This document shows, in pieces, positions 7,641 through 64,000 of a DNA stretch of 64,000 nt (position 1 is its first letter; each line of letters begins with the position of its first letter). The notes under the pieces are model-generated. The model was not told the DNA's origin and did no database searches. It saw only the letters and a program-made list of their open reading frames with translations. The position numbers were made by a program, and so were the translations under genes. This DNA is from Cytophagales bacterium. Lineage in GTDB: Bacteria > Bacteroidota > Bacteroidia > Cytophagales > Cyclobacteriaceae. Location of the stretch: positions 1 through 64,000 of the forward strand of contig JADBYK010000033.1 in NCBI GenBank assembly GCA_020403045.1, given 5' to 3'.

Positions 7641-8531
7641 ATGAAATTAACCCGTTTAAGCCTCTATCTACTATTTATCGCAACTGTCTCTTTATTAGCC
7701 TCTTGCGGATCTTCTAATAAGCAAGAAGAACAAAATTCTGATGAGTTCAAGCAAGCCGAGGAGTCATTGAAAGACCAAATCGAAGATGTCGTATACAACA
7801 TCCCCTCTCCTTCTGAGATACCCTATTTGTTGCAAGCAACCGGGGCAGAGTTTAACCAGAGCCTTTTGACAGACGTTAAGAAAGTAGATCAATACATGAC
7901 TAGATCCGACAAAGCGGCTTTGAATTTGGGTGCCTACGTGGCAGATATTGGCTATTTGAGTTCATATGATAAAACGCAAAAAGCTATCGATTACCTGAGT
8001 GCAGCAAAAAAGCTAGCTGACAACTTAGGCGTAGTTGGCTCTTTCGATACTGAAATCTTAAAACAGTTTGAAGCAAACATATCAAACAAAGATTCATTAG
8101 CCTCTCTATTGAACCGTGCAGTTCAAAAAACGGACAAATATTTGAAGAACGATAGTCGTAACAAATTAGCTGCGATGATGTTGACCGGAAGTTTTATCGA
8201 AAGTCTTTTCATTTCAACTGGCTTGATTAAAACTTATCCAAAAGATCTTTTGGAGAATGATCAACGTAACTTGATTCTTACTCCTCTTATCAGAATCATC
8301 CTTCAGCAAGAAAAATCTGTTGATGAGCTAGTGAGAATGCTAAGCACCGTTGAGCAATCTAACCCGGTAACTAACATTCAAGCCGATCTGGCCGCTTTAC
8401 AAGCCAGTTACCGTGCCCTTAACATCGAAGAACAAATCAAAAATAATCGCTCTGCTATGGTACTCACCGACAAGCATTTGATTGAAATCACCAAGATTGT
8501 TGAAAAGATGAGAAAAGATATTACGGACTAA
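7641..8531 (+). CDS. Lipoprotein of unknown function, paired with ABC transporter (copy 1)
   Basis: A 296-residue lipoprotein with a type II signal (LLASC, lipidated Cys22), followed by an acidic Glu/Gln/Ser-rich tether. The mature part is almost entirely helical, with IPSPSEIPYLL near residue 51 and ALNLGAYVADIGYL near residue 92. It is a diverged paralogue of the lipoprotein at 63124, sharing IPSPxEIxxLL, ALNLGxxxxDxGY and YLSxxKxLAD. Both members stand next to the same type of large ABC fusion protein, so I infer that the lipoprotein is its envelope partner, perhaps contacting the transporter's long periplasmic insert. A terminator-like hairpin separates it from the ABC gene, so the two may be transcribed partly independently. 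I do not recognise a named family. Confidence 0.75.
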   Translation: MKLTRLSLYLLFIATVSLLASCGSSNKQEEQNSDEFKQAEESLKDQIEDVVYNIPSPSEIPYLLQATGAEFNQSLLTDVKKVDQYMTRSDKAALNLGAYVADIGYLSSYDKTQKAIDYLSAAKKLADNLGVVGSFDTEILKQFEANISNKDSLASLLNRAVQKTDKYLKNDSRNKLAAMMLTGSFIESLFISTGLIKTYPKDLLENDQRNLILTPLIRIILQQEKSVDELVRMLSTVEQSNPVTNIQADLAALQASYRALNIEEQIKNNRSAMVLTDKHLIEITKIVEKMRKDITD

Positions 8532-8550
8532 TCTCATTCAGTAATTGTAA

Positions 8551-8582
8551 AAGGGGATTGGTGGAAACCGATCCCTTTTTTT
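8551..8582 (+). terminator. Rho-independent terminator after the lipoprotein gene
   Basis: AAGGGGATTGGT pairs with ACCGATCCCTT (one bulged G, one G-T pair) and is followed by seven T residues. It lies 20 bases after the lipoprotein stop and 56 bases before the ABC start. Confidence 0.75.
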
Positions 8583-8637
8583 GTTTCTATTAGCATCTCA
8601 ACTTTCGTACTTTTATAAACCTGTTAAACCCTATTGT

Positions 8638-11600
8638 ATGAGTGAGCCCGTCCTAAAAGCTATCATGAAATTGTTTGCGATGGTCGCAAAAGAAGACACC
8701 GTTACAACACAAGAGCGGGCCTACATCCAAGCCTTTTTGGCCGACCATGTAGGGCACAAATCTATGGAACATCACTTACATCTTTTTGATGAGTTCGCCA
8801 GAGAAACATCAGAAAAATTGATCGGTGATAACCAAGAAGAGAGTATTCTAAAAATCTGTGCCTCTATCAATGAAGAAACGGCACAGAAACAGAAAATGGT
8901 AATCATGCTGGAGTTAATCAGTTTGATCATGGCCGATGGCATTATTTCGCCTGCCGAAGAAAAAATTTCAAAAACCATTGGTAAGGCATTCAATATCAGT
9001 TCAGGAGATGTCGACTTAATCAAACAGTTTCTAGAAGCAAAGAAACCGGATGACTACGATAACGAAAATGTGCTTGTGGTGTGTTCAAAAAGTAGTAGAT
9101 CGAACAACACAAAAATAATCACGCGGCCTGAGTTGGATGGCTTCATTGCCATCCTCTATATCCGGGTCACCGATATTTTATTTTTTCGCTATCTGGGCAA
9201 TTCTGATGTATACCTAAATGGAGTTCCTCAGAAACCGGGGCTGATAAATGTGCTTGGGACAGGGAGTACACTTCGCTGGGGAACCAGCGACCCTGTATAT
9301 TATGGTGAAATTGTAAATGTTTTTAAAAAACAATCTGAAGGTACGCGAACTAGTTTTGAGGCAGAGAAAATCTCATACGAGTTTAAAAACGGTAAACTCG
9401 GACTGCGAGATGTAGTAATTTCAGAAGAATCTGGCAATCTCGTTGCGTTGATGGGCGCCAGCGGTGCGGGTAAGTCGACCCTACTTCACGTTTTAAACGG
9501 TACAGAAAAACCTTCTAAGGGCAGAGTACTTATAAATGGAATTGACATTCACAAAAATCCAGAACAGATCGAAGGTGTGATTGGATTTGTGCCTCAGGAT
9601 GATCTACTGATCGAAGACCTAACCGTTTATCAGAACCTCTATTTTGCCGCAAAACTTTGTTTCAGTCACCTGAATGAAGAAGAAATTGATTTGCTTGTCA
9701 TTAAAACATTGAATGATTTGGGACTTACCCAGACCAAGGATCTGAAAGTCGGCTCACCGCTGCAAAAAACAATTAGTGGAGGCCAACGAAAACGACTAAA
9801 CATCGGGCTAGAACTACTTCGCCAACCTGCTGTTTTGTTTGTGGATGAGCCCACGTCAGGGCTATCATCCAGAGATTCTGAAAACATCATTGATCTTTTG
9901 AAGGAACTGTCCCTAAAAGGAAAGCTAGTGTTTGCAGTTATTCATCAACCTTCTTCTGATATATTCAAGATGTTTGATAAACTGGTTATCCTGGATACTG
10001 GAGGCTACCAGATTTACTATGGAAATCCAGTTGATTCGGTAACGTACTTCAAAAAGAATATCAATCTGATCAATAGTGATGAAGGAGAATGTCATTCCTG
10101 TGGAAATGTAAATCCAGAGCAAATTTTCAATATCATTGAAACAAAAGTGATCAATGAGTTTGGAGATTTTACCAATGATAGAAAGTTTACACCCGAACAA
10201 TGGAATGAGTCTTTTCTTAACAAAATCAAGTTATCATCAGTAGCCCCATCATCAGATACACCTCACTCAACCTTGCGTATACCCAAGTGGCTAAAACAAA
10301 CAAAGCTCTTCTCCACACGCGACTTACTTTCAAAACTAAGTAACAAACAGTATTTGTTCATTAATTTATTGGAAGCTCCCCTTTTGGCATTCATCCTGGC
10401 GTTTATTGTACGTTATTATAATATAGATGATCCGTTCAAGGAAGGGTATGCATTCAGTAAAAACCTGAATATTCCAGCACACCTGTTTATGAGTGTCATT
10501 GTCGCTCTATTTATGGGACTGACTGTAAGCGCAGAGGAGATCATCAGAGATCGAAAAATTCTTAAGCGTGAAAAATTTCTTCACCTCAGCAGAAGCAGTT
10601 ATATCATTTCAAAAATAATGATACTCTTTATGATCTCTGCCATCCAGACATTTTTATTTGTCGCGGTGGCAAATTATATCCTCGGCATCGAGGGGATGTT
10701 CCTCATCCACTGGAGTATACTTTTCACGGTATCGTGCTTTGCCAATTTATTGGGTCTTAACATATCGTCTGCTTTCAATTCGGCAGTGACCATCTACATA
10801 CTGATTCCGATTTTGCTTATACCACAGCTGATATTAAGTGGAGTAGTTGTGAAGTTTGATAAACTTAATCCAATCATTGGTAACACCTCAACCGTACCAC
10901 TGGTTGGTGACCTAATGGCATCCCGATGGGCCTTTGAAGCCGCGATGGTAAGCCAGTATAAAGACAATGAATTTGAAAAACAATTCTACTTGTATGAAAA
11001 ACTGATGGCCGATGCCGATTACAAGAAAATATACCTAATCCCAGAAATAGAAACCCGGATTGATTTCATTAATCAGCAATACACTAATCCAGATCCGTCA
11101 ATCCAAAAGGAAGTAACCCGACAACTGCAAGTGGTAAATCTCGCGATTGAGACAGAACAGCGAGTGATCAATGCCCGGTTCGAACAATTGCAAAGTCTTG
11201 CCCCAGGTAAATTTGACACACTGGTGTATAAGAAAACAGTTTTTTTCTTAGAAGCTTTGAAAAAATTCTATATCAATCGGTATAATAAAGCAGATCAGGA
11301 AAAAGAGAGGTTGATTAGTCAATTTACCAATACAAGCGAGAAAGAGAAAGAATTCGAATCACGAAAAAGAAACTACCAAAACGAAGCGATAACCGAACTA
11401 GTTAGGAACACGATGGAAACAAATCGTATTATTGAAAAAGACGGAAAGCTTATTCAAAAGATTTATCCCATTTACAAAGATCCGGATCCGAGCCATATGG
11501 TTGACTTTGACGCTCAGTTCTATATGCCTGCTAAACATTTTTTAAATCAAAACATTGATACCCTTTATTTCAATCTGGGGGTGATTTGGTCTATGACACT

Positions 11601-11691
11601 GGTACTAGCCATTGCGCTTTATTGGGAGCTTCTCCGAAAGGTGATTGAGGCCTTGAGTAATATTTCTAATCCCATACCAAAGAGAATGTAG
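8638..11691 (+). CDS. TerB-like/ABCG-type fusion transporter (copy 1)
   Basis: A 1017-residue fusion protein. The ATG at 8638 is chosen because MSEPVLKAIMKLF aligns with the paralogue start MSEEILKALTQLF at 59989. Residues 1-135 are helical and acidic, resembling the TerB/tellurite-resistance fold (RAYIQAF, IMADGIISPAEEKI). Residues about 145-235 are beta-rich and look FHA-like (VYLNGVPQ, LGTGSTLRWG). The ABC ATPase has Walker A GASGAGKST (about 273), signature ISGGQRKRLN (about 379) and Walker B LFVDEP (about 400). The linker ECHSCGNVNPEQIF corresponds to the ABCG NPADF element and adds a CxxC pair. Five membrane helices (about 575-755) precede a hydrophilic insert of about 215 residues and a last helix near 978. 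The single half-transporter probably dimerises in the inner membrane. The substrate is unknown. Confidence 0.85.
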   Translation: MSEPVLKAIMKLFAMVAKEDTVTTQERAYIQAFLADHVGHKSMEHHLHLFDEFARETSEKLIGDNQEESILKICASINEETAQKQKMVIMLELISLIMADGIISPAEEKISKTIGKAFNISSGDVDLIKQFLEAKKPDDYDNENVLVVCSKSSRSNNTKIITRPELDGFIAILYIRVTDILFFRYLGNSDVYLNGVPQKPGLINVLGTGSTLRWGTSDPVYYGEIVNVFKKQSEGTRTSFEAEKISYEFKNGKLGLRDVVISEESGNLVALMGASGAGKSTLLHVLNGTEKPSKGRVLINGIDIHKNPEQIEGVIGFVPQDDLLIEDLTVYQNLYFAAKLCFSHLNEEEIDLLVIKTLNDLGLTQTKDLKVGSPLQKTISGGQRKRLNIGLELLRQPAVLFVDEPTSGLSSRDSENIIDLLKELSLKGKLVFAVIHQPSSDIFKMFDKLVILDTGGYQIYYGNPVDSVTYFKKNINLINSDEGECHSCGNVNPEQIFNIIETKVINEFGDFTNDRKFTPEQWNESFLNKIKLSSVAPSSDTPHSTLRIPKWLKQTKLFSTRDLLSKLSNKQYLFINLLEAPLLAFILAFIVRYYNIDDPFKEGYAFSKNLNIPAHLFMSVIVALFMGLTVSAEEIIRDRKILKREKFLHLSRSSYIISKIMILFMISAIQTFLFVAVANYILGIEGMFLIHWSILFTVSCFANLLGLNISSAFNSAVTIYILIPILLIPQLILSGVVVKFDKLNPIIGNTSTVPLVGDLMASRWAFEAAMVSQYKDNEFEKQFYLYEKLMADADYKKIYLIPEIETRIDFINQQYTNPDPSIQKEVTRQLQVVNLAIETEQRVINARFEQLQSLAPGKFDTLVYKKTVFFLEALKKFYINRYNKADQEKERLISQFTNTSEKEKEFESRKRNYQNEAITELVRNTMETNRIIEKDGKLIQKIYPIYKDPDPSHMVDFDAQFYMPAKHFLNQNIDTLYFNLGVIWSMTLVLAIALYWELLRKVIEALSNISNPIPKRM

Positions 11692-58009: not shown

Positions 58010-58477
58010 ATGAAGGACTTTGAAACTTTCGACAGCATTGAAGCGCTGGATAGTGAATCGAAATACCTGATTCATAAGGCCAAAGAAGCCACCGCCCATT
58101 CGTATGCACCTTACTCCAAATTTTGTGTAGGGGCTGCGCTCATCTTGGAAGACGACACCGTTGTGGTGGGTGGCAACCAGGAAAATGCCTCCTACCCTCT
58201 TTGCATGTGTGCCGAGCGGGTGGCCCTTTATGCTGCCGCTTCGCAGCACCCTGATAAACGAATTGTTAAAATGGCCATTATTGCCCACAAGAAAAACCAC
58301 AAAGAGCTCATTCCGGCTGCATCATGCGGTGGGTGTCGGCAAGTGATGCTAGAATTCGAACATAGGCAACGAGCCGCCATTCAGATTGTGTTCTTGGCAA
58401 GGCCTGATGAGTGGACTGTTTGCGCGAGCGTAGCCAAATTGCTCCCATTTGGATTTTCAAAAGACGCGTTCGGATAG
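58010..58477 (+). CDS. cdd: Cytidine deaminase
   Basis: Zinc enzyme of pyrimidine salvage that converts cytidine and deoxycytidine to uridine. 155 residues, homotetrameric type. Zinc and catalytic motifs: MCAERVALYAAAS (the C-A-E motif) near residue 66 and SCGGCRQVMLEF (two cysteines) near residue 105. The start at 58010 is an ATG. It sits between decayed or repeat sequences rather than in an operon. Confidence 0.95.
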   Translation: MKDFETFDSIEALDSESKYLIHKAKEATAHSYAPYSKFCVGAALILEDDTVVVGGNQENASYPLCMCAERVALYAAASQHPDKRIVKMAIIAHKKNHKELIPAASCGGCRQVMLEFEHRQRAAIQIVFLARPDEWTVCASVAKLLPFGFSKDAFG

Positions 58478-58866
58478 CAAATAGGGCTACCTCAATGGTT
58501 TTCCTCCAAAATACCTGGCTTAGTAGCGTTGTTGACTACTTGAGATACCAAAACGCAAAATCGATAGGGACTTTGGTTGATTGGCAAGTGACTGATAAAT
58601 TAATAATTTGGTAATGAAATAAATCGTTGTCTATGTATCTTCGACATGCTTTACCTTCCCTCACGAGAGGATTTAACCCAGATTGTGAAGTTGGCTGCAA
58701 AACCTGCCCGGAGAGCCGAAGAATGTCAGTATTTTCGGGATTAACGTCCCACGAGTCTGCTACGACTGTAAGAATCATCAGACCTGACCAAAATACGATG
58801 CATTTTGTGTCAGCAGAAGGTAAATTTTTGCTGTTGCAAAATTTGGTTTAACGGGGTTTTCTGTGA
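58478..58866. other. Gap with fragmentary sequence upstream of the SpoIIE remnant
   Basis: A plus-strand frame of 74 codons at 58627-58851 has no recognisable domain. A partial match to the end of the dispersed repeat (AACCCAGATTGTG) lies near 58675. No intact gene is supported. Confidence 0.35.
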
Positions 58867-58971
58867 CCCAAAAGCGAAGCGGCCAAAGTCTTTAATGCAG
58901 AGTGGGAGGTATGGAAAGGTGATCAAAAGCAAACGGATGACGTGTTGTTGATTGGAATTAAATTACAATAG
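58867..58971 (+). pseudogene. C-terminal remnant of a SpoIIE/PP2C-type phosphatase
   Basis: Read in frame up to the TAG at 58969, this segment encodes about 34 residues. They include FNAEWEVWKGDQKQTDDVLL and IGIKLQ, which fit the conserved tail of SpoIIE/PPM phosphatases (W-x-G-x-x-Q-x-DD-hhhhG). A TGA immediately precedes it at 58864, and no start or upstream phosphatase domain is found. So it looks like the stump of a deleted gene. It lies 41 bp before siaB, where a SiaA-like phosphatase would be expected. Short length limits the certainty. Confidence 0.55.
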
Positions 58972-59012: not shown

Positions 59013-59567
59013 ATGAATTTTATCTACGACTTGCACCGGACGGTGATGTCCCAAAACCTAATCTTGGTGTACGGAGGTGATTTCACCCAGGAAACAACCA
59101 AGTCCATATTGGCCTTAGCAGAGCACAATCTTGATTCTTCCGGGGAAAATTCAGCAATTAAGCGCAGAGTGTTTAACATAATGGTTGAGGCGCTGCAAAA
59201 CATTGTTAAACACGGCAGTGATCAAGGCACGTTAGCTGGACCGCTGGTCAGTAAAGGTGCAATTTTCATGATCAGCAAGAATGACAGCGGTTACTGCGTG
59301 CTGACCGGCAATCCGATTCCAAAAGGTGATGTGGCACGGTTGACCGGCAACCTCAACGACCTCAATAGCAAAGACAAAGAAAGCCTGAAGGAGATGCGTA
59401 AAGAAACCATGAAGAATACTCAGATATCTGAAAAAGGTGGTGCAGGCTTAGGGTTTGTTGACATGAAAAGAAAGTCAGGAAAAAAATTAGAGTTTGCCTT
59501 TAGCGATAAGGATGCAGAATATGACTTCTTTTGCCTGAAAGTCAATGTCTCTCGTGAAAAGGATTAA
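59013..59567 (+). CDS. siaB: SiaB-family protein kinase
   Basis: A 184-residue HATPase-fold protein of the SiaB family (DUF6272). In Pseudomonas SiaB phosphorylates SiaC. The N-box is RRVFNIMVEALQNIVKHG (Glu59, Asn63, His67) and the G-box is GGAGLGFVDM (residues 142-151), followed by the SGKKLEFAFS strand. No membrane segment. It is the first intact gene of an operon with siaC, the second ABC fusion transporter and a lipoprotein. The switch is inferred to control that transporter or a c-di-GMP enzyme elsewhere. Confidence 0.88.
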   Translation: MNFIYDLHRTVMSQNLILVYGGDFTQETTKSILALAEHNLDSSGENSAIKRRVFNIMVEALQNIVKHGSDQGTLAGPLVSKGAIFMISKNDSGYCVLTGNPIPKGDVARLTGNLNDLNSKDKESLKEMRKETMKNTQISEKGGAGLGFVDMKRKSGKKLEFAFSDKDAEYDFFCLKVNVSREKD

Positions 59568-59590
59568 TTATAAAAATAAAAAATGAACCA

Positions 59591-59956
59591 ATGATGGAAA
59601 TCTTAAATCTAAAAGGGACAGATGATACACCAGCTGTCTTGTTGGATAAGCAAAACGGTATTTTTGAGATTAGTGGACGTTCGCTGCCCGAGAACGCAGC
59701 GGAGTTCTACAAGCCTGTCATCGAGTGGATCAATGCATACGCATCAGACTCAAATTCCAGCACAGAACTCGCTATAAAACTGGAATACTTTAATACGGCT
59801 TCTTCAAAATTAATTTTGGATGTACTTTCGGCACTCGAAGAGGTAAAAGGCATAAAAGTTCTTTGGTATTTCCATGATGATGATGAAGATATGGAAGAGG
59901 CAGGTCAGGAGTTCTCGGAATTGGTTAGAATTCCCTTTGAGCTCAAAGTATATTAA
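59591..59956 (+). CDS. siaC: SiaC-family regulatory phosphoprotein
   Basis: A 121-residue DUF1987 protein that in Pseudomonas is phosphorylated by SiaB, dephosphorylated by SiaA and, when unphosphorylated, activates the diguanylate cyclase SiaD. The phospho-acceptor motif YFNTASSK is present. Counting from the second methionine (59594), the threonine is residue 68, the same position reported for P. aeruginosa SiaC. The sequence is an alpha/beta fold resembling anti-sigma-antagonist partner-switch proteins. It lies 24 bp after siaB and 32 bp before the ABC gene. Confidence 0.88.
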   Translation: MMEILNLKGTDDTPAVLLDKQNGIFEISGRSLPENAAEFYKPVIEWINAYASDSNSSTELAIKLEYFNTASSKLILDVLSALEEVKGIKVLWYFHDDDEDMEEAGQEFSELVRIPFELKVY

Positions 59957-59988
59957 ACCACAGTTGAAGAAAAAATAAATTTTAAGGA

Positions 59989-62900
59989 ATGAGTGAGGAA
60001 ATACTAAAAGCGCTTACCCAACTCTTTGCAATCATCACCAAACAAGATGGCGGGGTGACTGAAAACGAGCGCCAATTTGTGATTAGTTTTTTTAGAACTG
60101 AACTAGATCAAGACTCGATCAAAGAGTACCTTGAGCTTTACGATAATATATCAGGATACAGTAAGCAAGGCTCGGGCGATGACGAAAAAAACAAGCTGAC
60201 TTCTGTCAGGGACTCTGTTAAAACCTTGGGTATCTGCAAGAAAATTAACAAAACCCTTACCCAAAAACAAAAAGTGGTTGTGTTGATTAAGCTGCTAGAG
60301 CTTATCGGCTCCGACAAGAACTTCACTCCACAGCGCATCGAAATCATCAATACCGTTTCGACTGTATTTAACATTGACCAGAAGGTATATAACCTCATTG
60401 AGAAGTTTATTACAGCAGAGCAAATTGAAGACCTGAACTTTTCTGATATCCTTATTGTCAATGGCGGCAGTGAGAAATCAGCCGAACTTCAAAAACATAC
60501 ACATGGCCACATCGCTGGCAATCTGATTTTTATGCGGGTCAGCAGTGTGGAAATGTATTTCACCAAATACCTGGGTGAGGAACTAAACATACTCAATGGA
60601 TTTATCATGCAATCCAATAGGGTTTATTTATTCTCGCATGGAAGCACTATAAAAACACAAGCAGGGGACGCGCTATACTACAGCGATCTCGTGGCCAACT
60701 TCAACGAAGAGATTAAAACCACCAAGCTTTCATTTAATGCAAACGTGGAAGAATTCAAGTTTCCCAATGGAGCTATTGGGCTGCGAGATGTGCTAATTGC
60801 AGAAGGTCCCGGCAGATTGATTGGTATTATGGGTGCGAGTGGGGCCGGAAAAACAACGCTGCTGCTAACACTCGCAGGTTTGGAAAAGCCTTCTAAGGGC
60901 GAAATTTTAATAAACGGCTTTGATATCCACAATAAGAAAGACAAGATTCAAGGTGTCATTGGTTTTGTTTCGCAGGATGATCTCTTAATTGAGGAATTAA
61001 CGGTCTACCAGAATCTGTATTACAACGCGAAACTTTGTTTTGCCACCTTTACAGAAACACAGCTACACGAGCGGGTAATGGAGACCCTTGAAAATTTAGG
61101 GCTAGACCAGCGGAAAGATTTAACAGTTGGCAGTGTGCTTGATAAAAAGATAAGCGGTGGTCAGCGCAAGCGTCTGAATATTGCGTTGGAACTTATTCGC
61201 GAACCTGCAATCCTATTTCTGGATGAGCCAACTTCAGGTCTATCGTCTCGCGACTCAGAAAACGTGATTGACTTACTGAAAGAGCTTTCCCTGAAAGGAA
61301 AACTTATTTTTGTAGTTATTCACCAACCCTCTTCAGATATCTACAAGATGTTTGATAAGATGGTGATTATGGATACGGGTGGTTATCCAGCCTATTATGG
61401 TGCACCGGTGGAAGCGGTTAGCTACTTTAAAAAAGCGACCCACCAGGTTGATAGCAATCGCGGCCAATGCGAAACCTGTGGAAACGTAAACCCTGAACAG
61501 ATTTTTAATATTATTGAGGCCAAAGTGGTAGATGAGTATGGTCAGCCCACCAACAAGCGTAAGGTTACTCCGCCCCAATGGCATGACAAGTATAAAGAAC
61601 GATTTAAAATCAGTCGTATTGAGGATGTGAAAGAAGAGCCTCCCAGCACGCTCAATATCCCAAGCCGATTTAAGCAAACCGCCATTTTTGCTACCCGCGA
61701 TTTTCTGTCAAAGCTCAGCAATAAACAATACTTGTTAATTAATTTGCTGGAGGCGCCTTTATTAGCAGCTATTCTCGCGATTATCATTAAGTACAAAAGT
61801 GCACCAGGTGGAAAAGAGTATCTATTTCGCTTCAATGATAACTTCCCGGCCTTCCTTCTGATGTCAATTATTGTAGCGCTCTTTATGGGCCTCACGGTCA
61901 GTGCCGAAGAAATTATCCGCGACCGAAAGATCTTGAAACGAGAATCGTTCTTAAATCTGAGTTGGAATAGTTACTTGATTTCTAAACTGGCCATTCTTTT
62001 CCTTCTGTCGGCTATCCAAACCTTAACCTTTGTCATCATTGGAAACGTAATTCTGGAAATCCACGGAATGACTTTTGCATTTTGGTTTGTCTTGTTTACC
62101 ACATCCTGCATGGCCAACGTATTGGGTTTAAATATTTCGTCTGCTTTCAACTCTGCCGTCACCGTCTACGTGATGATTCCACTTTTGCTGATTCCTCAAA
62201 TGATTTTGAGCGGACTTCTTTTTAATTTTGATAAGTTGAATGGGATTATAGCTACTAAGGGCAAAGTACCAGTGGTAGCCGATTTGATGACTTCCCGGTG
62301 GGCCTATGAAGCCATGGCTACCCATCAATTTAAAAATAACGAGTATGAAGCCACTTTCTTTAAGTATGAAAAAGAAGAGGCAAAAGCAGATTTCAAGGCG
62401 GCTTATCTTGCCGATGAACTAAAAAAGAGAAATCTATTTGTCTTAGAGAACTTCGAATCAAAAAATGATTCAATCAAGAAACTGGTAGCCATAAACCTGT
62501 CGATCATCGATGAGAATTTAAAAAACGAACCCTTCCGGATGGGCCTTGAGAAAATCGACCTCGCTAGTGCTCTTGACCCGTCAAATTATTCAAAAATCGT
62601 AGGTGGGCTTCTGTCCAATTATTTCGAAGACTATCGAAAATACTATCAAAAAATCTACAACGATAATGTTTCTCTGATCGAAAAAAGAATGGCATTTGAT
62701 GAGAAGAATGGAATCGACATCAACCACGAAAAGAATAAATACTACAATGAAAGTTTGGCGGATCTGGTGAAAAATATTAACACGAAGGAGCGACTGCTCG
62801 AATACAACGGAAAACTCATTCAACAAATCAACCCTATCTTTCAGGAAACCAATCCTTCTAATCCGATGGACTACAGAACCGCCTTTTTCCTCCCCCAAAA

Positions 62901-63072
62901 AAACTTCGCAGGAATGTCTATTGATACGTATTGGTTTAATCTGCTGGTTATCTGGATGATGGCCCTATTGTTATATATATCTTTGTACTTTGAATGGCTC
63001 AGAAACCTGATTGACTTATTTGGGAAGGTGAATATCCCAAACAAAGTAACTATTCCGTTCAAAAGGAAGTAG
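59989..63072 (+). CDS. TerB-like/ABCG-type fusion transporter (copy 2)
   Basis: A 1027-residue paralogue of the protein at 8638 with the same order: TerB-like helical domain (1-135, LFAIITKQDGGVTENERQF), a beta-rich domain (about 160-240), an ABC ATPase with Walker A GASGAGKTT (about 283), signature ISGGQRKRLN (about 388) and Walker B LFLDEP. The ABCG linker CETCGNVNPEQIF (Cys494, Cys497) is conserved. Five helices, an insert of about 220 residues and a last membrane helix follow (WFNLLVIWMMALLLYISLYF). The N-terminal and beta domains diverge more than the ATPase, as expected for regulatory parts. Part of the siaBC operon, so its activity may be switch-controlled. Confidence 0.86.
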   Translation: MSEEILKALTQLFAIITKQDGGVTENERQFVISFFRTELDQDSIKEYLELYDNISGYSKQGSGDDEKNKLTSVRDSVKTLGICKKINKTLTQKQKVVVLIKLLELIGSDKNFTPQRIEIINTVSTVFNIDQKVYNLIEKFITAEQIEDLNFSDILIVNGGSEKSAELQKHTHGHIAGNLIFMRVSSVEMYFTKYLGEELNILNGFIMQSNRVYLFSHGSTIKTQAGDALYYSDLVANFNEEIKTTKLSFNANVEEFKFPNGAIGLRDVLIAEGPGRLIGIMGASGAGKTTLLLTLAGLEKPSKGEILINGFDIHNKKDKIQGVIGFVSQDDLLIEELTVYQNLYYNAKLCFATFTETQLHERVMETLENLGLDQRKDLTVGSVLDKKISGGQRKRLNIALELIREPAILFLDEPTSGLSSRDSENVIDLLKELSLKGKLIFVVIHQPSSDIYKMFDKMVIMDTGGYPAYYGAPVEAVSYFKKATHQVDSNRGQCETCGNVNPEQIFNIIEAKVVDEYGQPTNKRKVTPPQWHDKYKERFKISRIEDVKEEPPSTLNIPSRFKQTAIFATRDFLSKLSNKQYLLINLLEAPLLAAILAIIIKYKSAPGGKEYLFRFNDNFPAFLLMSIIVALFMGLTVSAEEIIRDRKILKRESFLNLSWNSYLISKLAILFLLSAIQTLTFVIIGNVILEIHGMTFAFWFVLFTTSCMANVLGLNISSAFNSAVTVYVMIPLLLIPQMILSGLLFNFDKLNGIIATKGKVPVVADLMTSRWAYEAMATHQFKNNEYEATFFKYEKEEAKADFKAAYLADELKKRNLFVLENFESKNDSIKKLVAINLSIIDENLKNEPFRMGLEKIDLASALDPSNYSKIVGGLLSNYFEDYRKYYQKIYNDNVSLIEKRMAFDEKNGIDINHEKNKYYNESLADLVKNINTKERLLEYNGKLIQQINPIFQETNPSNPMDYRTAFFLPQKNFAGMSIDTYWFNLLVIWMMALLLYISLYFEWLRNLIDLFGKVNIPNKVTIPFKRK

Positions 63073-63123
63073 ATTTGGTAACATATGCTGAATTCTTAAT
63101 TTTGTATAGATAATTAATAAGTT

Positions 63124-64000
63124 ATGAGAGTATTCCTGATTTCACTACTCGCCCTGTTTTTTACCGCCTGCGGCACGGGCAAAAAACCAGACGAACAAGC
63201 CTTTTTGAATAGCCTGGATTCTGCCAAAAGCGGGCCTACCATAGATGAAGAGGTTATTAACAGCATTCTCCAGCAGATACCAAGCCCGCTGGAGATTTCG
63301 GTTCTTTTAAAGGAATCGGGGACAAAATACAATGCCGGCATGCTAAACACTCCGGATAATCTTTCAAAATATAACAGCAACTACAAAAAAGCACTCAATT
63401 TGGGGGTTTTTGGTACTGATTTGGGATATACTAACATCTACGAACAGAATCAGGACGGCATTAAATACCTTTCATCGATCAAATCACTGGCTGACGGGCT
63501 GAATATTGGACAATTTTTTGATATTGAAACGATTGGCCGATTGGCAACCAACAGCAAAAACCTCGATTCCTTGTTATTGATAACGACCCAAAACTTTAAT
63601 AGCATTAATCACTACTTGCAAACCCAGAGCCGGGCTAGCCTGAGTGTTTTGCTGCTCATTGGGGGATGGGTAGAAGCTATGCAGATAACGTGTCAGGTCG
63701 CTGCCAAAGACACAAAAAATAAAGAGCTTCAGGAGAAAATAGGCGAACAAAAAATAATCCTTGAACAGATCGTTCTTCTGCTATCGTTCTACAAAGACGA
63801 TGCAAATATGGCATCGTTATTGAATGACATGAACGAATTGAAGGTTGCCTTTGACAAAATCAATATTACTTACACTTACAAAGAGTCTACTATGGAAATC
63901 ATTGATGGCGTTGCGGTTATCAAAGACAACAGTTCTACCACTATCAATGTCACCAGTGAGGATATTGAGGCGATTAGAACGTTGACAAATTCTATCAGAA
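63124..64000 (+). CDS. Lipoprotein paired with ABC transporter (copy 2), incomplete at window end
   Basis: Open from ATG 63124 to the window edge (292 codons seen, no stop). Signal and lipobox FTAC give lipidated Cys16. IPSPLEISVLL (about residue 51) and ALNLGVFGTDLGY (about residue 91) match the lipoprotein at 7641. The later part adds a region absent from the shorter first copy (ITYTYKESTMEIIDGVAVIK). It is 51 bp downstream of the copy 2 ABC gene. Function unknown, inferred periplasmic partner of the transporter. Confidence 0.75.
   Translation, partial: MRVFLISLLALFFTACGTGKKPDEQAFLNSLDSAKSGPTIDEEVINSILQQIPSPLEISVLLKESGTKYNAGMLNTPDNLSKYNSNYKKALNLGVFGTDLGYTNIYEQNQDGIKYLSSIKSLADGLNIGQFFDIETIGRLATNSKNLDSLLLITTQNFNSINHYLQTQSRASLSVLLLIGGWVEAMQITCQVAAKDTKNKELQEKIGEQKIILEQIVLLLSFYKDDANMASLLNDMNELKVAFDKINITYTYKESTMEIIDGVAVIKDNSSTTINVTSEDIEAIRTLTNSIR

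Follow-up and report, generated by a model that had tools for sequence, protein, structure and literature searches.

What does a SiaB-SiaC phospho-switch control when its genes are followed by those of a transporter and a lipoprotein? The question is raised by the right-hand end of a 64,000-nucleotide stretch of a Cytophagales genome (assembly GCA_020403045.1, contig JADBYK010000033.1, positions 1 to 64,000; hereafter the window), where siaB, siaC, an ABCG-type ATP-binding cassette (ABC) transporter gene and a lipoprotein gene form one operon on the plus strand from position 59013 to the end. In Pseudomonas, such a switch governs biofilm signalling. There, the available text of two reports describes SiaB as phosphorylating Thr68 of SiaC, SiaA as reversing this, and unphosphorylated SiaC as binding and activating the diguanylate cyclase SiaD (PMC8457831, PMC7647112). 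Our answer for the window is that the operon rather likely represents the output side of a partner switch dedicated to the ABC exporter as its target.

The four co-directional genes of the initial annotation were all present at their positions, and its spacing was right for the siaC-transporter and transporter-lipoprotein gaps (32 and 51 bp) and one base too long for the siaB-siaC gap, which is 23 bp and not 24. The HATPase-type protein kinase gene siaB (59013-59567) belongs to the SiaB family, as had been proposed, scoring 154 bits against NF038262 (SiaB_fam_kinase; cut-off 85) and 127 bits against PF19788; it stays below the stricter equivalog model NF038264 (66 vs 225 bits). At residue 59 it has the string EALQNIVKH, which we take to be the N-box. 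The next gene, siaC (59591-59956), encodes a STAS-like phosphoprotein (SiaC/DUF1987) that scores 133 bits against PF09345 (cut-off 24.5) and lies below the equivalog NF038265 (93 vs 150 bits). Its match to P. aeruginosa SiaC (6k4f; phmmer E 1.4e-18) aligns the phosphorylated threonine of that protein with a threonine of the window SiaC, bearing out the Thr68 motif noted earlier: the predicted phospho-threonine codon is at 59795-59797, residue 69 of the longest open reading frame and 68 counted from the second Met. The window genome has a single SiaC match and a single SiaB match in total, both in this operon.

The transporter (59989-63072, 1027 amino acids) has a nucleotide-binding domain (NBD) fused to, and preceding, a membrane domain: ABC_tran at residues 274-416 (104.8 bits) and ABC2_membrane at 563-751 (66.2 bits), both over the Pfam cut-off. 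Its ATPase motifs are intact (GASGAGKT at 282, SGGQRKR at 389, FLDEP at 410 and IHQP at 444, corresponding to Walker A, signature, Walker B and His-switch). By domain order and motifs it is a predicted ABCG-type ABC-2 exporter, with presumed outward transport. The N-terminus looks like TerB plus FHA, comprising a TerB-like domain (residues 1-142; 59989-60414) and an FHA-like domain (residues 150-236; 60436-60696). The initial description of a 1027-residue TerB-like/ABCG transporter thus stood for the ABC domains, and its TerB part scored 24.2 bits, just under the Pfam cut-off of 24.4. The FHA-like domain has the beta-sandwich fold of FHA; of the Arg, Ser and Asn that bind phospho-threonine in FHA loops, a conserved Arg or Ser was not apparent by eye where expected, and one NG is near-invariant. 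A large, poorly conserved loop before the last transmembrane-like stretch, placed by hydropathy and per-domain conservation (residues 780-975; 62326-62913), is probably periplasmic, judging its membrane side from the ABCG fold.

The lipoprotein gene (63124-64000 in the window) overshoots the window end by 17 bases, to contig position 64017, and encodes a lipobox-like FTAC with Cys16. No Pfam or NCBIfam model reached its cut-off for this protein. In an AlphaFold2 model, helices make up most of the mature part and a small beta sheet lies at its C-terminus; Foldseek found no PDB chain at E < 0.001 (best 0.47). A profile search returned scattered matches, of which the best, to a kinetochore subunit (E 0.0021), was taken as chance. 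Beyond the window end lies a fifth operon gene, not included in the initial annotation (64038-64469 of the contig, C52). It encodes 143 amino acids whose start resembles a signal peptide by eye, and a Pfam search of this protein gave no match.

To judge the arrangement in relatives, 80 homologous loci were fetched from named genomes with the window transporter as query. siaC immediately preceded the transporter in 77 of the 80, and in 77 of the 78 where the contig leaves room. Where there was room, siaB was found upstream in 63 of 73 loci and siaA in 58 of 71. Downstream, a lipoprotein homologue was present in 75 of 80 loci (75 of 76 with room) and the fifth gene in 71 (71 of 72 with room). 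Contig ends account for 14 of the 17 gaps in siaC, the lipoprotein and the fifth gene. Across 148 genomes surveyed in the order, 95 gave a SiaC match and 91 a match to the N-terminal profile of the transporter; 89 genomes had both SiaC and the transporter family, 6 SiaC only, 2 the transporter only and 51 neither, counts that are uncorrected for kinship.

The arrangement was also sampled by genus, with one genome each for 50 of 51 matching genera and 80 transporter regions taken, leaving aside the places G141:C594 and G129:C622 (a 185-amino-acid fragment) and weaker matches. Here, 35 of the 80 regions were siaC-linked; they came from 35 of the 50 genomes and represent 14 families. A lipoprotein homologue lay upstream, with no Sia gene, in 15 regions; 3 had a lipoprotein downstream and no siaC, with one of the three truncated at a contig end; and 27 had none of these. 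Two loci with siaC, L132 and L150, were left out of the transporter set for their short ABC frames. Because siaC adjoins the transporter in so many loci and in 14 families, the operon is not a chance assembly, and the order-wide survey rules out a merely local arrangement; the co-occurrence in other Bacteroidota genomes on which the initial annotation had staked its proposal is therefore there. Beyond the order, the A5 profile matched 5 of 198 genomes of the phylum, four of them from the window's own family. In G192, from another order, a lipoprotein, a gene resembling that of the 143-amino-acid protein and the transporter occur together, with no siaB or siaC within the 1.5-kb flanks.

A FastTree phylogeny of 92 transporters, including 9 of the 80 named loci and read without regard to root or direction, placed all 44 siaC-linked rows in one branch of 52 rows (local support 100). 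Outside this branch, 0 of 40 rows were siaC-linked, and both window-genome paralogues are among them. One paralogue, a full-length TerB/FHA-type ABCG transporter with 49% identity to the operon transporter, lies at 8638-11691 of the window; a lipoprotein homologue (296 amino acids, 29% identity) is directly upstream, so that the pair spans 7641-11691, without siaB or siaC. The second full-length paralogue is on contig C81 (44% identity). Parabacteroides distasonis likewise has a homologous transporter (37% identity) with a lipoprotein (E 1.7e-10), and the four proteins searched there gave no Sia match. Because such Sia-less pairs exist in the window paralogue and in P. distasonis, the transporter and lipoprotein look like a wider unit of which one branch is tied to SiaBC. 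A plasmid search found one record covering at least 80% of the query, from P. distasonis, among the best 5000. Next to a third full-length paralogue (L013, 6002-9097), neither siaB nor siaC nor a homologue of the lipoprotein was found; by eye, its neighbours are a gene for an S41-type peptidase and one for a small lipoprotein of an unrelated kind.

Given the Pseudomonas precedent, a GGDEF cyclase would be the expected output. GGDEF (PF00990) was found in 0 of the 95 SiaC genomes of the order, the window genome included, and in only one of all 148, G030, which itself has no SiaC match; the same search was positive in 8 of 14 control genomes. The Pseudomonas-type output is therefore excluded in these SiaC genomes, and a GGDEF cyclase was rejected as the target. 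In addition, siaC stays with the transporter in nine loci that lack siaA and siaB upstream. These two observations favour the earlier proposal that the transporter itself is the output of the switch, a proposal that is partly supported overall. In G047 and G102, two genomes of the order, SiaC genes number at least 27 and SpoIIE phosphatases at least 20 in each, a large partner-switch repertoire without GGDEF.

The fate of the phosphosite differs between loci with and without the kinase. The SiaC threonine was kept in 98 of 98 loci with adjacent siaB. Among the nine loci without siaA and siaB whose flank was long enough to judge, it was kept in six and replaced by Ile, Ile and Val in the other three (3/9 vs 0/98; Fisher p 4e-4, for loci that are related and perhaps hold two events only). 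In six further loci too short to judge siaA and siaB, L102 has Pro and five have Thr. Loss of the threonine where no kinase is adjacent fits a SiaC that serves the transporter while unphosphorylated. Two kinds of unusual locus were also seen. L133, L135, L139 and L144 have another siaC-siaB pair, oppositely oriented, some 7 kb beyond the transporter on the downstream side; its siaB frame is longer (367-397 codons), its SiaC has Ser where the phospho-threonine would be, and a weaker siaA-like frame adjoins it. In L167 (G002), siaC and the transporter are preceded by three tandem siaB-like frames and followed by two lipoprotein homologues.

The initial annotation had suggested that the switch may be sensed through the TerB-like or the beta-rich part of the transporter's N-terminus. 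Conservation moderately favoured the TerB-like domain, with an imperfect control, and the beta-rich part turned out to resemble FHA. When conservation in the siaC-linked clade was set against that in unlinked transporters, TerB stood highest of the domains, at a ratio of 1.64, with the NBD at 1.12. The N-terminal alignment omitted L126 and L150, whose frames are broken; alignment A5 comprised 65 of 75 usable loci and alignment A4 55 of 61 listed loci, each with two window proteins added. Distance-correlation coevolution over 96 pairs gave too weak a signal to name a docking domain.

Several observations weigh against the transporter as target and TerB as docking site. The linker after the NBD was also more conserved in the siaC-linked clade (1.32). 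When clade C10 served as the comparison, TerB (1.41) exceeded the remaining domains (1.19-1.36) by little, and in the control C10 itself showed raised TerB conservation against the unlinked rows outside it (1.13, with 0.71-0.99 for the remaining domains; p 1e-7). The mirror-tree signal was weak (partial r 0.19 for TerB vs 0.16 for the periplasmic loop). The three threonine losses fall in related loci, and the residue is kept in the majority of kinase-less loci. Two of these, L098 and L107, come from genomes that also gave full modules (L131 and L129), and SiaB could therefore act there in trans. Many genomes of the order hold several SiaCs, at least 27 in the two mentioned above, and SiaC can therefore have other partners. 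Finally, 8 of the 52 rows of the siaC branch have no adjacent siaC, one of them being cut by a contig end.

These last points bear on the view that siaC and the transporter are merely co-transcribed and that SiaC acts in trans elsewhere. The unaccompanied transporters of the branch speak for it, as do the many genomes with more SiaCs than transporters of this family. The adjacency across 14 families, the complete absence of siaC beside transporters outside the branch, two from the window genome included, and the retention of siaC alone where the rest of the switch is gone all run counter to it, and we regard it as unlikely. A further view turns the signal flow around: the transporter and lipoprotein would be the sensor, as in flux-sensing ABC transporters, and would control SiaB or SiaC, with the true output elsewhere in the cell. 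The TerB-like and FHA-like parts do suggest docking, and most relatives carry much signalling gear in the form of cheR, cheB and GAF genes. However, siaA already has a probable outside sensor, the nine reduced loci have no adjacent kinase left to control, and no other candidate output gene for SiaC was seen in the operon; we consider reversed flow very unlikely. Our preferred reading remains the exporter as the target of the switch.

The complete module in relatives reads cheR, cheB, a gene for a GAF protein, siaA, siaB, siaC, transporter, lipoprotein and fifth protein; the order from cheR to siaC was seen in 51 of 77 loci. Among the cultured relatives, Chryseolinea serpens DSM 24574 (L130) has the entire set. 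Four same-family relatives carry a frame for a SpoIIE phosphatase (1123-1131 codons) about 1.1 kb upstream of the transporter; in both regions read, it immediately precedes siaB. A siaA-like frame was present upstream in 86 of 111 siaC-linked loci (one, L209, with a 90-bit match, is probably another gene), was not found in 18, a few of which had only 3 kb of flank, and was undecidable in 7; near unlinked transporters it was found in 0 of 48. By Pfam, the siaA product of L084 has dCache (39 bits, under the cut-off of 45), GAF, two PAS and SpoIIE domains, with HAMP under cut-off. Its best NCBIfam model is SiaA NF038263, which matches residues 862-1123 with 213 bits (equivalog cut-off 700).

The window operon has no intact siaA. 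Only the last 33 codons of this SpoIIE/PP2C phosphatase gene remain (58867-58965, plus strand; tblastn E 1e-12), with 79% identity to the intact gene of another genome in the same genus and 88% to L077. Neither this remnant nor the deletion that produced it figured in the initial annotation. By blastn against L084 and L077, the window and L084 are colinear on both sides at 86% identity, and 5658 bases of L084 (1174-6831) are replaced by 239 bases (58615-58853). Lost at this junction are cheR, cheB, the GAF gene and most of siaA, about 5.6 kb; by sequence comparison, the window bacterium has evidently lost the sensor half of the switch by deletion. The part at 58670-58852 has 20 further matches in the window genome (G000), mostly pieces, at 69-91% identity, and perhaps belongs to an intergenic repeat family. 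To the left lies a cytidine deaminase gene (58010-58477, plus strand; Pfam dCMP_cyt_deam_1), which marks the module boundary in relatives: L077 and L084 have it as left neighbour too, and so, judged by eye, do five reduced loci in which siaA and siaB are absent and siaC and the transporter follow it directly. In some relatives' loci siaA, or siaA together with siaB, is likewise absent and the rest is kept. In an 85-transporter tree, absence of siaA alone (5 rows) took 3 changes, and so did joint absence of siaA and siaB (9 rows).

A replacement phosphatase was sought in the window genome. PF13672 (PP2C_2) gave no match and PF07228 (SpoIIE) two proteins, neither of them siaA; no replacement for SiaA was thus recognised, and either SpoIIE protein could still act in trans. 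One of the two genes (L014, 2864-5708, contig C55) is followed, by eye, by STAS-like and HATPase-like genes, a set like that of the RsbU-RsbW-RsbV partner-switch systems. By eye, the other has no such neighbours.

For the window genome alone, two further explanations concern the missing siaA. The operon might be a decaying relic, its switch stuck without SiaA and its genes being lost; the deletion, the siaA remnant and the phosphatase counts just given would all agree. On the other side, the siaB, siaC, transporter and lipoprotein genes have open frames with the usual lengths, the threonine, N-box and ATPase motifs are retained, and other loci without siaA, or without siaA and siaB, keep their remaining genes, so that decay appears somewhat unlikely. 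Alternatively, the gene may be missing through an assembly or binning error. The assembly is a draft of 124 contigs and has a repeat-like stretch at the junction, where assemblies go wrong. Yet both flanks are colinear with L084, the junction falls within a contig of 105 kb, and the rest of the assembly has no additional SpoIIE gene; we rate such an error as decidedly unlikely.

With the exporter as target, the module may work as follows. The phosphatase SiaA, which probably senses the outside through dCache, would remove the phosphate from Thr68 of SiaC in the presence of its signal; in the absence of that signal, SiaB would phosphorylate the residue. By analogy with the activation of SiaD by unphosphorylated SiaC in Pseudomonas, unphosphorylated SiaC would bind the cytoplasmic N-terminus of the transporter, most likely the TerB domain, and this binding would switch on the ATPase or assemble the transporter. 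The transporter would then work with the lipoprotein and the fifth protein on its putative substrate. The SiaC-transporter contact and its sign, the kinase and phosphatase activities and export are all predicted here from sequence and analogy. Since the window genome has lost the sensor arm, most of its SiaC would carry the phosphate and the exporter would be inactive there, unless either of the two SpoIIE proteins acts on SiaC.

Compared with SiaABCD of P. aeruginosa, the locus has a SiaB-type kinase, a SiaC with an aligned phospho-threonine and, in relatives, an adjacent gene for a SiaA-type phosphatase. It differs in that the next genes encode an ABC exporter, a lipoprotein and a small protein and not a SiaD-type GGDEF protein, in that the window and relative sequences score below the SiaA, SiaB and SiaC equivalog cut-offs, and in that siaA is deleted in the window. 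Because a SiaD and, in the window, a SiaA are missing, we do not file the locus as a SiaABCD system; it is best filed as a Sia partner switch with a new output, proposed to be the ABC exporter. The RsbU-RsbW-RsbV kind shares a PP2C phosphatase, a HATPase kinase and a STAS-like phosphoprotein, as far as the available text of PMC7647112 goes, and the proposed target here is a transporter and not a sigma factor or cyclase. Rv1747 of Mycobacterium tuberculosis is described in the available text of PMC5549992 and PMC3908365 as an FHA-ABC exporter in an operon with the kinase PknF. In the window, by contrast, a TerB-like domain precedes FHA, a phosphoprotein gene stands between the SiaB-like kinase and the transporter, and a lipoprotein and a small protein follow. 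The Sia-less TerB/FHA ABC-lipoprotein pairs at window 7641-11691 and in P. distasonis share the homologous transporter and lipoprotein, and differ in having no siaB or siaC match among the neighbours examined and, in the window pair, in the upstream position of the lipoprotein.

The available text of PMC8457831 calls DUF1987/SiaC widespread, and its authors proposed modulation of neighbouring proteins as a common role of the DUF1987 family. In the literature searched, with partial coverage, no report links SiaC/DUF1987 to an ABC transporter partner. The role of the TerB fold is poorly understood. We tentatively suggest, as a possibility just short of the favoured side, that the Sia switch was rewired in one Bacteroidota order from cyclic di-GMP synthesis to post-translational gating of an exporter, with SiaC as a TerB-docked subunit that became constitutive where the kinase, and in part the threonine, was lost. 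The transporter would then be a second lineage-wide adjacent partner of SiaC, of quite a different kind, in genomes without GGDEF, and the module would let phosphorylation switch an ABC exporter directly, by way of a TerB-like domain.

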